A DNA stretch of 64,000 nucleotides, taken from Streptomyces daqingensis (GTDB lineage Bacteria > Actinomycetota > Actinomycetes > Streptomycetales > Streptomycetaceae). Of this stretch, positions 15,605-20,060 are shown in pieces. The position numbers were made by a program, and so were the translations under genes. The first letter of the stretch is position 1. Every line of letters begins with the position of its first letter. The notes under the pieces are model-generated. The model was not told the origin of the DNA, did no database searches, and was given only the letters and a program-made list of their open reading frames with translations. The DNA lies in the NCBI RefSeq assembly GCF_014645895.1, contig NZ_BMMP01000001.1:124001-188000 (forward strand). Direction: 5' to 3'.

Positions 15605-16621
15605 GTGACCGGAGTCGCGTCACCCGGCCCGGCCGGACCCGAGCGTCTCGCGCCCGGGGCCCGCCCCCTGATGGAGGCGATGGCCGCCGTCTTCCCGGAC
15701 GTGGGGGTGACGGTGACGGACGCCGCGGAGGCGCGGCGGATACTCGCCCGCATGATGCCGCCGCCGACGGGCAACCCCGCCGTGGGGCAGGTGGAGGACC
15801 GCACGGTCCCCGGCCCCGAGGGCGCACCGCAGCTGCCCGTGCGGATCTACCGTCCGCCCGGCGGGAGCGTCGCGGCGGTGCCGACGGCCGTGTTCTTCCA
15901 CGGCGGCGGCTGGGTCCTCGGCGGTCTCGACAGCCACGACGCGACGGCGAGGAGTCTGTGCCTCGCCTCGGGCGCCGTCGTGGTCTCCGTCGACTACCGG
16001 CTCGCTCCGGAGGCCCGGTTCCCCGAGCCCGCCGAGGACGCGTACGCGGCCGTGTCCTGGGCCTCGGAGCACGTCGGGGAGCTGGGCGGGGATCCGCGGG
16101 CCCTGGTGGTCGCCGGGGACAGCGCGGGCGGCAACCTCGCGACGGTCTGCACGCTGATGGCGCGGGAGCGCGGCGGCCCGCGCATAGCCCACCAGTCGCT
16201 GATCTACCCGTCCACCGACACCGAGGCGCGCACGCCGTCGCGAGCGGCCAACGCGCGGGGCTACTTCCTCACCGAGGAAGCCATGCGCTGGTTCGGCACC
16301 CAGTACTTCGGACCGGACGCGGACCTCTCCCACCCCCACGCGGCGCCGCTGCGGGCGGACCTTCGGGGTCTGCCGCCCGCGCACGTCGTCACGGCCGGCT
16401 GCGATCCGCTGTGCGACGAGGGCCGGCTGTACGCCGCCAGGCTCTCGGAGGCCGGGGTGCCCGTGACCGAGGCGCACTTCCCGGGGATGTTCCACGGCTT
16501 CCTGGGAGCGGGCCGTCTGCTTCCGGACGCTCAGGAAGCCATGGCAGGACTGGGCAAAGTCATTGCCGCGACAGCTTCTGACAGGAAGATCGACGGCGAT
16601 GAGGGGGGTTCAGAAGGATAA
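15605..16621 (+). CDS. alpha/beta-hydrolase, hormone-sensitive-lipase family esterase
   Basis: A 338-residue esterase. The HSL-family oxyanion motif HGGG is at 99-102, the nucleophile elbow is GDSAGGN (171-177, Ser173), and Asp267 and His297 complete the triad. It acts on short-chain esters or lactones; the natural substrate is unknown. A strong GAGGAGAAGGAG ribosome site precedes the GTG at 15605. Without a signal peptide it should be cytoplasmic. Confidence 0.93.
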   Translation: MTGVASPGPAGPERLAPGARPLMEAMAAVFPDVGVTVTDAAEARRILARMMPPPTGNPAVGQVEDRTVPGPEGAPQLPVRIYRPPGGSVAAVPTAVFFHGGGWVLGGLDSHDATARSLCLASGAVVVSVDYRLAPEARFPEPAEDAYAAVSWASEHVGELGGDPRALVVAGDSAGGNLATVCTLMARERGGPRIAHQSLIYPSTDTEARTPSRAANARGYFLTEEAMRWFGTQYFGPDADLSHPHAAPLRADLRGLPPAHVVTAGCDPLCDEGRLYAARLSEAGVPVTEAHFPGMFHGFLGAGRLLPDAQEAMAGLGKVIAATASDRKIDGDEGGSEG

Positions 16622-16701
16622 TTTGCGGCGCCTCCACTTGAGAGGGGGATCGGGTGCGGCTACCGTTTAGTCACGCCAGGTTCTTTCGTGGAGGGGTAGT
16701 C

Positions 16702-18099
16702 ATGACGGAAATTCTTTCGTCCGAGACCGAGGCCGGCGGGGGTACGTCCGACGAGCGCGTGGTCGAACACCCGGCGTGGGCCGTACTCAAGGACGCGGTG
16801 GAGGCGATCCGTCCGGCCCAGTCCAAGGACGGCTCCATCGACTTCGACGCCGAAGACGCACCCTCGCGCACCGCGGTGGAGGGCGAGGTCGCGCAGATAT
16901 GCAACGCGGTACGCGACCTCTCCGCGCTCCTCCCGCACGACGCCGAATACCACGAAGCGCTCGTCGCCGACCTGCGCCGCTGGGCCGAGGACGGCTTCGG
17001 CGTGCCCGACTTCCTCGACTCCCTGCTCGCCTTCCAGCCCGCACAGGACCGCCGCGACGGGCTGCAGCACCTGGTCGTCTTCCCCATGTACACCCAGAAC
17101 GGCAACCCCGACCGCAACCTGGAAGCGGTCGTGCTGCGCATGGTCTGGCCCGACTGGCTCGCCGAGCTGGAGCGCACGCGCTACGACAACCCCCTCTTTT
17201 GCGGCATCACCTTCGAGGACTTCACCTCCGGCTACGACACCAACTCCGCGGTGCTCTTCCCCGAGACGGTGGCCGTCCGTCAGGCGCCCGAGCGCTTCTC
17301 CTGGGGCGGCATCTTCTGCGACCGCGAGGCCGCCCGCTTCCGCCGCGTCATCGACGCCGCCTGCGACGTGACCAGCCTCAGCCTCCCCGACGACGCCAGG
17401 GGACTGGTGTCCGACCAGGCGCGCTGCCAGCAGACCTTCGTGCTCTGGGACATGATCCACGACCGCACGCACAGCCACGGCGACCTGCCCTTCGACCCCT
17501 TCATGATCAAGCAGCGCCAGCCGTTCTGGATGTACGGGCTGGAGGAGCTGCGCTGCGACCTGACGGCCTTCCACGAGGGCGTGCGCCTGGAGGCGGACGG
17601 CTACCCGCAGGGCCGCGACGTGCAGTTCGCGGTCCTCCTCGACCGGCTCTTCCGCTTCCCCGTCACCGGCGAGCGCAACCGCAACTACGACGGGCTGGGC
17701 GGCCAGCTCCTCTTCGCCTACCTCCACCAGCACGACGCGCTGCGCTGGAGGGACAACAAGCTCTCCATGGACTGGGACCGCGCGCGGGAGGTGACGGTGC
17801 GTCTCCGGGAAGAGATCGAGACGCTCTACCGCGCGGGCATCGACCGCCCGAAGATCGTCCACTGGTTCAAGGCGTACGAACTCGTCTCCACCTACCTGGC
17901 CCCGCACCCCGGTTCGAAGTGGGCCCGCGGCCCGGAGGCGCTCGACCTCAGCCTGCCGCCCCGCAAGCTCGTGGACGATGTGCTTCCGGATGAGTTTCCG
18001 CTGAGCATGTTCTACGAGGCCCTCGCGAAGAAGCTCCGTTCCGTGATCGCATCGACCAAGGGCATCACGGCGGAGGCCCCAGCCCTCGCCGCCGCCTGA
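16702..18099 (+). CDS. DUF6421-like protein with a possible zincin-type metal site
   Basis: A 465-residue cytoplasmic protein that I match from memory to DUF6421, a Streptomyces family of unknown function. Residues 253-257 read HDRTH, an HExxH-like motif with Asp for Glu, followed by Ser-His-Gly; 24 residues on comes EELRCD (281-286), reminiscent of the second ligand motif of gluzincin peptidases. This metal-site reading is my inference. A strong GGAGGGG ribosome site precedes the ATG at 16702. SDR and threonine aldolase genes follow on the same strand, with a hairpin at 18107-18143 in between. Confidence 0.7.
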   Translation: MTEILSSETEAGGGTSDERVVEHPAWAVLKDAVEAIRPAQSKDGSIDFDAEDAPSRTAVEGEVAQICNAVRDLSALLPHDAEYHEALVADLRRWAEDGFGVPDFLDSLLAFQPAQDRRDGLQHLVVFPMYTQNGNPDRNLEAVVLRMVWPDWLAELERTRYDNPLFCGITFEDFTSGYDTNSAVLFPETVAVRQAPERFSWGGIFCDREAARFRRVIDAACDVTSLSLPDDARGLVSDQARCQQTFVLWDMIHDRTHSHGDLPFDPFMIKQRQPFWMYGLEELRCDLTAFHEGVRLEADGYPQGRDVQFAVLLDRLFRFPVTGERNRNYDGLGGQLLFAYLHQHDALRWRDNKLSMDWDRAREVTVRLREEIETLYRAGIDRPKIVHWFKAYELVSTYLAPHPGSKWARGPEALDLSLPPRKLVDDVLPDEFPLSMFYEALAKKLRSVIASTKGITAEAPALAAA

Positions 18100-18106
18100 C
18101 CGGCGG

Positions 18107-18143
18107 CCCGGTGCGCCTCCCGGACCCGGGGCGGCGCACCGGG
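18107..18143 (+). terminator. hairpin between the DUF6421-like and SDR genes
   Basis: An 11-bp perfect stem (18107-18117 with 18133-18143) and a 15-base loop, 7 bases after the upstream stop. It could be a terminator or partial terminator, lowering expression of the two downstream genes relative to the first. Confidence 0.5.
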
Positions 18144-18222
18144 GCCCGGCAGGCGCACACGACAGCACAACGCACGCGGCACCACGGCGGCGCGGGGCGT
18201 CCATGACCAGGAGGCAGCAGGC

Positions 18223-19002
18223 ATGACCAGCACGACGGCACGTGGATACCAGGGCAACGGGAACGGCAGCCTCGAGGGCTCTGTCGTCGCCGTCGCCGGT
18301 GCGGCGGGCCCCGCGGGAGCGGCGGCGGTCCTGCACCTCGCCGAAGAGGGAGCCACGGTGGTCGCCGCCGACGCGGACGCCGAACGCCTCGCGCAGGCCG
18401 TCGACGCCGCCCGGTTCGCCCACGGCGGCGCGAGCGTCACTGGCGACACCGTCGACCTGCTGGACCTGGGCGCCGCCCAGGAGTGGGCCTCGCGGACGGA
18501 GAAGGAGTTCGGACGCGTCGACGGCCTCGTGCACCTCGTCGGCGGCTGGCGCGGCTCCCGCTCGTTCGCGGAGACGGACCTCGCCGACTGGGACGCGCTG
18601 CACAGCCTGCTGATCCGCACCGTCCAGCACACCTCCCTCGCCTTCGAGGGCGCCCTCAAGCGCAGCGGGAACGGCCGCTTCCTCCTCGTCAGCGCGGCCG
18701 GCGCGACCAAGCCGACGGCCGGCAACGCCGCCTACTGCGCCGCCAAGGCCGCCGCCGAGGCATGGACCCTGGCCCTCGCCGACTCCTTCCGCAAGGCCGG
18801 GGGCGACGCGGGCCCGTCGGCGGCTGCTGCCATCCTTGTGGTGAAGGCGCTGGTGAGCGAGCAGATGCGCGCCGACCGCCCGAACGCGAAGTTCGCGGGC
18901 TTCACCGACGTATCGGAGCTGGCGGAGGCCATCGCCGGGACATGGAGCACGCCCACCGAGGAAGTGAACGGAAACCGCCTGTGGTTGACTCCGAAGCCGT
19001 GA
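18223..19002 (+). CDS. short-chain dehydrogenase/reductase
   Basis: A 259-residue Rossmann-fold oxidoreductase. The cofactor loop is GAAGPAG (26-32), a variant of GxxxGxG. Ser157, Tyr171 and Lys175 form the catalytic set, with YCAAK as the YxxxK motif. The N-terminal 18 residues are Gly/Asn-rich and probably disordered. An AGGAGG ribosome site precedes the ATG. Its TGA overlaps the GTG of the threonine aldolase gene (GTGA), so the two are translationally coupled and may act in one pathway. Confidence 0.9.
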   Translation: MTSTTARGYQGNGNGSLEGSVVAVAGAAGPAGAAAVLHLAEEGATVVAADADAERLAQAVDAARFAHGGASVTGDTVDLLDLGAAQEWASRTEKEFGRVDGLVHLVGGWRGSRSFAETDLADWDALHSLLIRTVQHTSLAFEGALKRSGNGRFLLVSAAGATKPTAGNAAYCAAKAAAEAWTLALADSFRKAGGDAGPSAAAAILVVKALVSEQMRADRPNAKFAGFTDVSELAEAIAGTWSTPTEEVNGNRLWLTPKP

Positions 19003-20060
19003 CCACCGACGCCAGGCGCCGCCACGACCCAGGGGTCCGCGGTTTTGCCAGCGACAACTACGCGGGCGTCCACCCCGAGGTCCTGGCGGCACTGGCCCTG
19101 GCCAACGGCGGCCACCAGTCCGCGTACGGGGACGACGACTACACCGCCCACCTGCAGCAGACCGTCCGCAGCCATTTCGGCGCGCGTGCCGAGGCCTTCC
19201 CCGTCTTCAACGGGACGGGCGCGAACGTCGTCGCGCTGCAGGCGCTCACCGACCGATGGGGTGCGGTGGTCTGCGCCGAGAGCGCCCACATCAACGTCGA
19301 CGAGTGCGGGGCGCCCGAACGCGTCGGCGGCCTCAAGCTGCTGACGGTCCCCACCGAGGACGGCAAGCTCACCCCGGAGCTCATCGACCGCGAGGCGCAC
19401 GGCTGGGAAGACGAGCACCGGGCGATGCCGCAGGTCGTCTCGATCACACAGAACACCGAACTCGGCACCTGCTACACGGTCGAGGAGGTGCGGGCCATCT
19501 GCGAGCACGCCCACGAGCGCGGCATGAAGGTCCACCTCGACGGCGCCCGCATCGCGAACGCCGCGGCGTCGCTCGACGTGCCCATGCGGGCCTTCACCAA
19601 CGCGGCGGGCGTCGACGTGCTCTCCCTGGGCGGCACCAAGAACGGGATGCTCTTCGGCGAGGCCGTGATCGTCCTCGATCCCGGGGCGGTCGGCGCCATG
19701 AAGCACCTGCGCAAGCTGTCGATGCAGCTCGCCTCCAAGATGCGCTTCATATCCGTGCAGTGGGACGCCCTGCTCTCCGGCGACCTGTGGCTGCGCAACG
19801 CCCGCCACGCCAACGCGATGGCGCAGCGCCTCGCGGAGGGCGTGAAGAGCGTCGACGGGGTCGAGATCCTCTACCCCGTGCAGGCCAACGCCGTCTTCGC
19901 GCGCCTCCCGAACGAGGTCAGCGAACGCCTGCAGAAGCGCTTCCGCTTCTACTTCTGGGACGAGGCGGCCGGCGACGTGCGCTGGATGTGCTCCTTCGAC
20001 ACCACGGAGGAGGACGTCGACGGGTTCGTCGCGGCGCTGCGCGAGGAGATGGGCCGTTAG
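18999..20060 (+). CDS. low-specificity threonine aldolase-family PLP enzyme
   Basis: A 353-residue fold-type I PLP enzyme. The PLP lysine is Lys214 in LSLGGTKNGM, the cofactor Asp is in HLDGARI (179-185), and His97 in SAHINVDE probably stacks on PLP. Threonine aldolases split threonine or allo-threonine and other beta-hydroxy amino acids into glycine and an aldehyde. GTG at 18999 overlaps the SDR stop as GTGA and is preferred to GTG 18981. A coupled SDR could oxidise or reduce a hydroxy amino acid or the aldehyde product; that is inference. A strong bidirectional terminator follows. Confidence 0.92.
   Translation: MTTDARRRHDPGVRGFASDNYAGVHPEVLAALALANGGHQSAYGDDDYTAHLQQTVRSHFGARAEAFPVFNGTGANVVALQALTDRWGAVVCAESAHINVDECGAPERVGGLKLLTVPTEDGKLTPELIDREAHGWEDEHRAMPQVVSITQNTELGTCYTVEEVRAICEHAHERGMKVHLDGARIANAAASLDVPMRAFTNAAGVDVLSLGGTKNGMLFGEAVIVLDPGAVGAMKHLRKLSMQLASKMRFISVQWDALLSGDLWLRNARHANAMAQRLAEGVKSVDGVEILYPVQANAVFARLPNEVSERLQKRFRFYFWDEAAGDVRWMCSFDTTEEDVDGFVAALREEMGR

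Follow-up and report, generated by a model that had tools for sequence, protein, structure and literature searches.

A conserved operon of DUF6421, short-chain dehydrogenase and threonine-aldolase genes in Streptomyces daqingensis, with a predicted iron- and pterin-dependent oxidase

Background

PolE, a DUF6421 protein involved in polyoxin biosynthesis, is an oxidase that depends on Fe(II) and tetrahydropterin, of a type described in 2025 (PMC12614342), and it is the closest described counterpart of the system considered here, a DUF6421 gene followed by a short-chain dehydrogenase/reductase (SDR) gene and an aldolase gene in Streptomyces daqingensis. The three genes lie in a 64,000-nucleotide stretch, hereafter the window, which comprises positions 124,001 to 188,000 of contig NZ_BMMP01000001.1 (assembly GCF_014645895.1). 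According to the PolE paper, the enzyme desaturates L-isoleucine to 3,4-dehydro-isoleucine for polyoxin and strictly needs Fe(II), O2 and tetrahydrobiopterin (BH4), its motif mutants are inactive (the insoluble E203A aside), and dihydropteridine reductase boosts its activity about 2-3 times (section 16). In the same paper, the family motif HE/DxxHx(21-23)E is proposed, the fold of dipeptidyl peptidase III (DPP III; peptidase family M49) is noted for PolE, with neither the motif nor the catalytic His of DPP III conserved, and many DUF6421 members are said to adjoin amino-acid-modifying enzymes; the authors suggest that such neighbours yield unusual amino acids (PMC12614342). The family chemistry, the fold, the HE/DxxH motif and the general remark on neighbours were therefore already known.

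Two other described systems are similar in part. The aromatic amino-acid hydroxylases (PF00351) share the predicted Fe(II) and tetrahydropterin cofactors and the need for pterin recycling, but have no sequence or structural homology to the PolE family according to PMC12614342. The SCO1089-1086 operon of S. coelicolor, annotated as a hypothetical protein, an oxidoreductase, an L-threonine aldolase and a second hypothetical protein, is preceded by a promoter that depends on SigB and is reported to be SigB-dependent under osmotic stress (PMC8346170); repression of SCO1086 by ArgR is described as well (PMC3293853, PMC5839063). The locus in the window is a conserved operon encoding a known but very new kind of enzyme, of which it represents a distinct clade.

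Results and discussion

The gene trio

The trio is located in a host genome of 6.5 Mb and comprises the following features, with positions given in the window:

16690-16696, + strand: ribosome-binding site GGAGGGG, read in the sequence
16702-18099, + strand: DUF6421 protein gene, 465 aa, ATG start 5 bases downstream of GGAGGGG
17458-17472, + strand: codons of HDRTH, residues 253-257 of the DUF6421 protein
17542-17559, + strand: codons of EELRCD, residues 281-286 of the DUF6421 protein
18223-19002, + strand: SDR gene, classical SDR with an HLVGGWRG motif, 259 aa
18999-20060, + strand: aldolase gene, pyridoxal-phosphate (PLP)-dependent L-threonine-aldolase family, 353 aa, GTG start

The DUF6421 protein matches PF19985 over its full length (745.2 bits against a cut-off of 25, E 2.7e-224, profile positions 1-436 of 437), the SDR matches PF00106 (81.5 bits, E 7.2e-23) and the aldolase matches PF01212 (178 bits, E 2.8e-52). 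The SDR stop and the aldolase start share GTGA at 18999-19002. Both motifs, this overlap and the common strand of the three genes are placed in the sequence exactly as a preliminary description of the locus had given them.

Active site and fold of the DUF6421 protein

Motifs were counted over 80 loci, the top-ranking 80 among at least 590 confirmed relatives found with a single distant query (L080, from a genome of the phylum), and thus not over a random sample; 56 of these were aligned with the window protein (alignment A3, 57 rows). The first motif reads HDRTH in 69 loci, HDRAH in eight, and HDRNH, HDRWH and HDTSH in one each, the second reads EELRCD in 78 and EELRVD in two, and the spacer between them is 23 residues in all 80. 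H253, D254, H257, G260, E281, E282 and D286 are each found in 57/57 rows of alignment A3. His259 lies outside the invariant site, since this position has H in 45 rows but R in the other 12. The four residues named for a conservation check in the preliminary description (His253, His257, Glu281 and Asp286) are thus invariant. In the window protein, HDRTH, 23 residues and E281 fit the HE/DxxHx(21-23)E pattern. H253, H257 and one of E281/E282 are the predicted metal ligands; E282 would be the likelier glutamate by the SnPolE register and by analogy with EECRAE of M49, and the published spacer fits E281. The metalloenzyme-type site with an Asp-for-Glu variant that had been suggested for this protein is supported.

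By sequence, the window protein matched the PolE structures in the Protein Data Bank (PDB) at E 9.2e-13 to 2.5e-10. Its AlphaFold model (pLDDT 91.3, pTM 0.89, with residues 261-270 averaging only 52) gave 22 Foldseek matches at E<=0.001, all of them PolE or DPP III entries, and in VIA-align comparisons it reached Z 30.9 with SnPolE 9j2e (362 residues, 3.7 A, 18% identity) and Z 18.1 (best, 6eom) down to 9.0 with DPP III. In the model, helix 239-260 carries H253 and H257, and helix 275-298 carries E281 and E282. By analogy with PolE (9j2e, 9j3g), with which it has the family, the fold, the HE/DxxH...EELR.D site and the equivalents of F140 and Y280 in common, the window protein is very probably an Fe/pterin oxidase.

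The preliminary description had linked the protein to M49, and a zinc metallopeptidase-like hydrolase derived from DPP III would agree with the fold and with the likeness of EELRCD to EECRAE as quoted there. We regard such a hydrolase as highly improbable, since the HExxGH zinc motif with its catalytic Glu is absent, HDRTH stands in its place with Asp in 57/57 rows, and the nearest structures are those of the Fe/pterin enzyme PolE. The peptidase reading was dropped on this motif and on the position of PolE above DPP III in the structure ranking. What stands of the M49 link is the shared fold (6eom) and a related second glutamate motif; a gluzincin peptidase variant is not the best reading, the chemistry being different, the family consisting of Fe(II)/pterin oxidases, and neither the motif nor the catalytic His of DPP III being conserved according to the paper that also notes the fold (PMC12614342). 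On the model, the fold is peptidase-related, but the enzyme is most likely an oxidase.

In the sequence register, F140 and Y280 of SnPolE correspond to F186 and Y329 of the window protein, each present in 57/57 rows of alignment A3, and Y157 corresponds to S200, a position occupied by T in 29 rows, H in 12, S in seven, N in six, Y in two and E in one. Structures of the SnPolE variants F140A, Y157A and Y280A have been deposited, that of Y157A in complex with L-Ile (PDB entry titles), and these titles suggest that Tyr157 matters for the PolE substrate. Retention of F186 and Y329 together with variation at the Tyr157 position would be consistent with cofactor handling common with PolE and a different substrate; the substrate of the DUF6421 proteins of the trio clade is probably not isoleucine, because the Tyr157 position is Thr, His, Ser or Asn in 54/57 rows. 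The two proteins differ further in that PolE has HE and belongs to an antibiotic cluster, whereas the window protein has HD, is linked to an SDR and an aldolase, and is near-universal in Streptomycetaceae. Among the sequences compared, Asp appears characteristic of the trio clade, and Glu of the PolE type.

A second, PolE-like DUF6421 copy with HEYHH...EELRVD was observed at locus L084 (G044:C1, about 6569105), 30% identical to the window protein over the matched part, in a genome of the same genus that also has the standard DUF6421 gene. At G074:C4:4375489-4376810, DUF6421 is represented by two neighbouring matches with a small overlap, so that the gene is possibly disrupted or misassembled in this single genome. 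Outside Streptomycetaceae, DUF6421 proteins frequently have a length of about 700 aa; all six such proteins scanned (L108, L098, L126, L149, L107 and L094) have an extra N-terminal region of about 270 residues that is lacking in the window protein and matches DUF4350 (above the cut-off in 5/6), ABC_transp_aux or IFT52_GIFT, which by family name points to a glutamine-amidotransferase-like fold.

Linkage of the three genes

DUF6421 was found in 149/150 Streptomycetaceae genomes and in 22 of 396 phylum-wide genomes, 12 of these 22 belonging to the own genus. Among 40 loci hand-picked for diversity from these two genome sets, all three genes occur in order in 34, the exceptions being L063 (no SDR match), L075, L076 and L079 (no full aldolase), L081 (contig end) and L084 (PolE type); at L073 a distance of 1.6 kb separates the SDR and aldolase genes. 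In the set of 80, where a partner was scored at >150 bits anywhere in the fetched locus, adjacency was not required and order was scored separately, both partners accompany DUF6421 in 67 loci, an aldolase is present without a scored SDR in ten, an aldolase with an SDR lacking GGW in one, an SDR alone in one and neither in one. The order DUF6421, SDR, aldolase is kept in 66/66 loci with both partners scorable on the same strand as DUF6421. The grouping to which the preliminary description had drawn attention is thus recurrent, and the three genes are not rarely found together. The ten loci with an aldolase and no scored SDR have gaps of 0-119 bases in six cases and of 477-825 bases in four, of which L167 has an AsnC-like open reading frame (62 bits) between DUF6421 and the aldolase and one is partly N.

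The 80 loci include Solirubrobacterales, Streptosporangiaceae genera, Mobilicoccus, Pedococcus, Tsukamurella, Sinomonas and Streptomycetaceae. The genes flanking the Streptomyces trio (GNAT, GDPD, acyltransferase and electron transfer flavoprotein (ETF) genes) have no match in the distant loci L073-L083, and therefore the linkage itself seems to be maintained by selection. When other neighbours were clustered in 30 of the 80 loci, the clusters listed covered at most five loci each, the exceptions being the trio itself, shadows of reading frames and one group of other SDRs (eight loci). It is very likely, in our estimation, that the three genes act in one pathway. A gene resembling alanine dehydrogenase by eye is present a few kb from DUF6421 at L107, L108 and L114.

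The aldolase

The aldolase is closest to the L-threonine aldolase 5vye (E 1.3e-85 over 15-348), followed by 1v72 (E 2.4e-77), which we take to be a phenylserine aldolase. Homology to this family of fold-type I PLP enzymes extends over the full length, and the GGTKNG segment, the Lys of which presumably binds PLP, is common with the solved enzymes, from which the window enzyme differs in its linkage to DUF6421. PF01212 has 12 matches in the host genome, two of them above 90 bits, and the trio aldolase is the strongest. The threonine-aldolase family reaction implies a β-hydroxy-α-amino acid as the substrate, and retro-aldol cleavage is the favoured direction of such aldolases. Whether the aldolase acts on the product of the oxidase appears to us evenly balanced.

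The aldolase could instead be synthetic and upstream, joining glycine and an aldehyde to a β-hydroxy amino acid that DUF6421 then oxidises or desaturates for a natural product. Such an order is suggested by PolE, which makes 3,4-dehydro-isoleucine for polyoxin, and by the proposal of its authors that enzymes encoded beside DUF6421 produce unusual amino acids (PMC12614342). The presence of DUF6421 in nearly all Streptomycetaceae is unlike a strain-specific natural-product cluster, however, and in many of them the gene adjoins ETF and acyltransferase genes; with the favoured retro-aldol direction also opposed to it, we consider a synthetic role improbable.

The short-chain dehydrogenase/reductase

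The model of the SDR (pLDDT 93.6) is that of a classical SDR. HLVGGWRG is invariant in an alignment of 16 rows, and over 42 members G107, G108 and G111 are invariant and W109 and R110 nearly so, with Tyr171 and Lys175 conserved and Ser157 near-invariant. The SDR class is common with dihydropteridine reductase (1dhr, 1hdr, 8b5t), and the GGW and C-terminal segments suggest a likeness to it. A 14-sequence profile covering the substrate half (no unrelated-SDR control) placed seven dihydropteridine reductases at ranks 8, 19, 24, 28, 29, 49 and 53 of 299 PDB sequences; these begin at profile positions 2-5, ahead of GGW, and among the 53 other rows listed only 2ag5 (5) and 3rkr (7) begin before position 10. 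With a profile of the C-terminal 75 positions, likewise built with no unrelated-SDR control, six PDB sequences were found at E<=10, and the only SDRs among them were three dihydropteridine reductases, at E 0.12 each and not significant alone. The SDR clade (E<=1e-30) is present in 31 of the 396 phylum genomes, 21 with DUF6421, three with PF00351 only and seven with neither; these 21 are all but one of the 22 DUF6421 genomes, a figure favoured by a query profile built from DUF6421-linked SDRs and, the genomes being related, no independent test. On these likenesses, recycling of the pterin by the SDR is a role to which we give slightly less than an even chance.

Given the same oxidase, the SDR might instead oxidise the β-hydroxy amino acid or reduce the aldehyde released by the aldolase, with the pterin recycled by other enzymes. 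Its classical residues Tyr171, Lys175 and Ser157, its best matches to FabG-like and other classical SDRs, the overlap of its gene with that of the aldolase and the Pseudomonas SDR described as oxidising L-phenylserine (PMC2963168) are all in keeping with this role. We find it rather unlikely, however, in view of the GGW motif and C-terminal segment, which point to dihydropteridine reductases, and of the SDR genes that stand beside DUF6421 with no full aldolase match at L075, L076, L079 and L107.

SDRs of the same clade with VGGWAGG were noted at L188, L190 and L191, in three genomes that belong to a single family and encode an aromatic amino-acid hydroxylase elsewhere; the gene beside each of them starts like a Rossmann-fold dehydrogenase (by eye). 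Loss of the catalytic serine was considered as a mark of dihydropteridine reductases and dropped, other members of the SDR clade keeping a serine there (alignment, by eye).

Proposed pathway

Taken as a whole, we see an even chance that the operon serves the oxidative conversion of a free L-amino acid by an oxidase, an aldolase and a pterin-recycling SDR. DUF6421 would bind Fe(II) through H253, H257 and one glutamate of EELRCD and, with O2 and tetrahydropterin, would form an Fe(IV)-oxo species that oxidises a side-chain C-H bond, as suggested by PolE. From the β-hydroxy-α-amino acid so formed, the aldolase would release glycine and an aldehyde, and the SDR may use NAD(P)H to reduce the quinonoid dihydropterin left after the oxidation. 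GTP cyclohydrolase I and pterin-4a-carbinolamine dehydratase (PCD) are present in the host genome, and the aromatic hydroxylase PF00351 was absent from it in a genome search. In the set of 396 genomes, PCD is found in 21/22 DUF6421 genomes versus 191/374 others.

Several results weigh against the proposed pathway. When the own genus is excluded, the PCD comparison falls to 9/10 versus 191/374 (p 0.02), confounded by kinship, and PCD occurs with neither oxidase in 183/396 genomes and is not a specific mark. Whole-length sequence and fold searches with the SDR were headed by FabG-like and other classical SDRs, with no dihydropteridine reductase among the matches listed, although its absence from the fold matches listed carries no weight. 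A six-sequence profile of distant-type trio SDRs (two from Solirubrobacterales and one from an 'Actinomycetes bacterium' included) gave one dihydropteridine reductase among the 60 rows listed, at rank 57 of 224. Both DUF6421 and PF00351 are missing from 7/31 SDR-clade genomes, and ten fetched stretches (8.5-12 kb) around SDRs of DUF6421-less genomes contained no DUF6421 and no aldolase. Neither partner is indispensable, as the full aldolase match is missing at the four loci named above and an aldolase occurs without a scored SDR in 10/80 loci and at L063. At L126 (118-2247), in a bin titled Anaerolineae and outside Actinobacteria, DUF6421 has neither SDR nor aldolase and is followed by a Pyr_redox_2 gene.

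Neither a pathway made up of the trio nor its substrate was found described in the literature searched, which covered few subscription papers and gives weak evidence of absence, and no account of such a pathway was found in passages of the PolE paper (PMC12614342). The remark in the preliminary description that no pathway was known for the trio holds to that extent, but it did not take in the published PolE chemistry.

Upstream region and regulation

The upstream alignment comprised 11 regions, namely the window and 10 of 14 Streptomyces loci (L143, L145, L158 and L159 were left out; L143 and L158 lack both upstream boxes by eye). The features of this region in the window are as follows:

15605-16621, co-directional with the trio: esterase gene, hormone-sensitive-lipase type (NCBIfam LipP1, 364.7 bits, cut-off 350)
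16581-16589, + strand: conserved upstream box ACAGGAAAA, pattern ACAGGAA(A/G)A, GGAA invariant in the 11 regions
16615-16624, + strand: conserved upstream box AGGATAATTT, final TTT invariant in the 11 regions, overlapping the esterase gene end
16638-16666, + strand: likely vegetative promoter, TTGAGA (16638-16643), 17-base spacer, TACCGT (16661-16666)

The CTTG and TAC-GT of the promoter are invariant in 11/11 regions, and we take the promoter to be of the HrdB type. The boxes ACAGGAAAA and AGGATAATTT are possible operators of some regulator. The esterase gene lies directly upstream of the DUF6421 gene, and a similar gene was seen in 1/40 neighbouring loci (L083).

In nine distant loci (L093, L097-L101, L103, L104 and L107), a divergent Lrp/AsnC-type gene adjoins DUF6421, hinting at amino-acid-responsive control of the operon. 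This gene sits inside a longer open frame in L100, L103 and L107 and was confirmed by Pfam in both loci tested, L097 and L098. L093 is from an 'Actinobacteria bacterium' and L097 from 'Marmoricola sp.', and the other seven (L098-L101, L103, L104 and L107) bear names of the Thermoleophilia type.

SCO1089-1087 of S. coelicolor appears to be equivalent to the trio, on gene order and product names only: the order is the same, and the putative acyltransferase SCO1085 resembles the PlsC-type gene beside the window trio, whereas SCO1086 (transglutaminase-like) has no counterpart between the aldolase and the acyltransferase in the window. A SigB pattern of the SCO1089p type had no match in the window or in 24 of the 25 upstream regions in all, the one match comparing with 0.5 of 25 in shuffles, and a looser SigB pattern gave scattered matches in the upstream regions and none in the window. 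A SigB promoter in the window was dropped as a candidate, and the published SigB control is not visible here.

Conclusions

PolE is the only DUF6421 member for which a published reaction was found, and it is distant from the window protein. The trio turns a core Streptomyces gene into a testable pathway with an oxidase, a candidate cofactor recycler and an aldolase that predicts the kind of product. It is possible, though doubtful, that almost all Streptomyces have a self-contained pterin pathway under stress control, in which a non-canonical Fe/pterin oxygenase β-hydroxylates a common amino acid, an aldolase takes off glycine and leaves an aldehyde, and a dedicated SDR restores the pterin. 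If true, amino acids would be catabolised by a new route, and the PCDs of these genomes, most of which are without aromatic hydroxylases, would gain a partner. Pterin-dependent oxidation of amino acids, so far tied to an antibiotic cluster, would thereby reach into the core metabolism of a major bacterial group.

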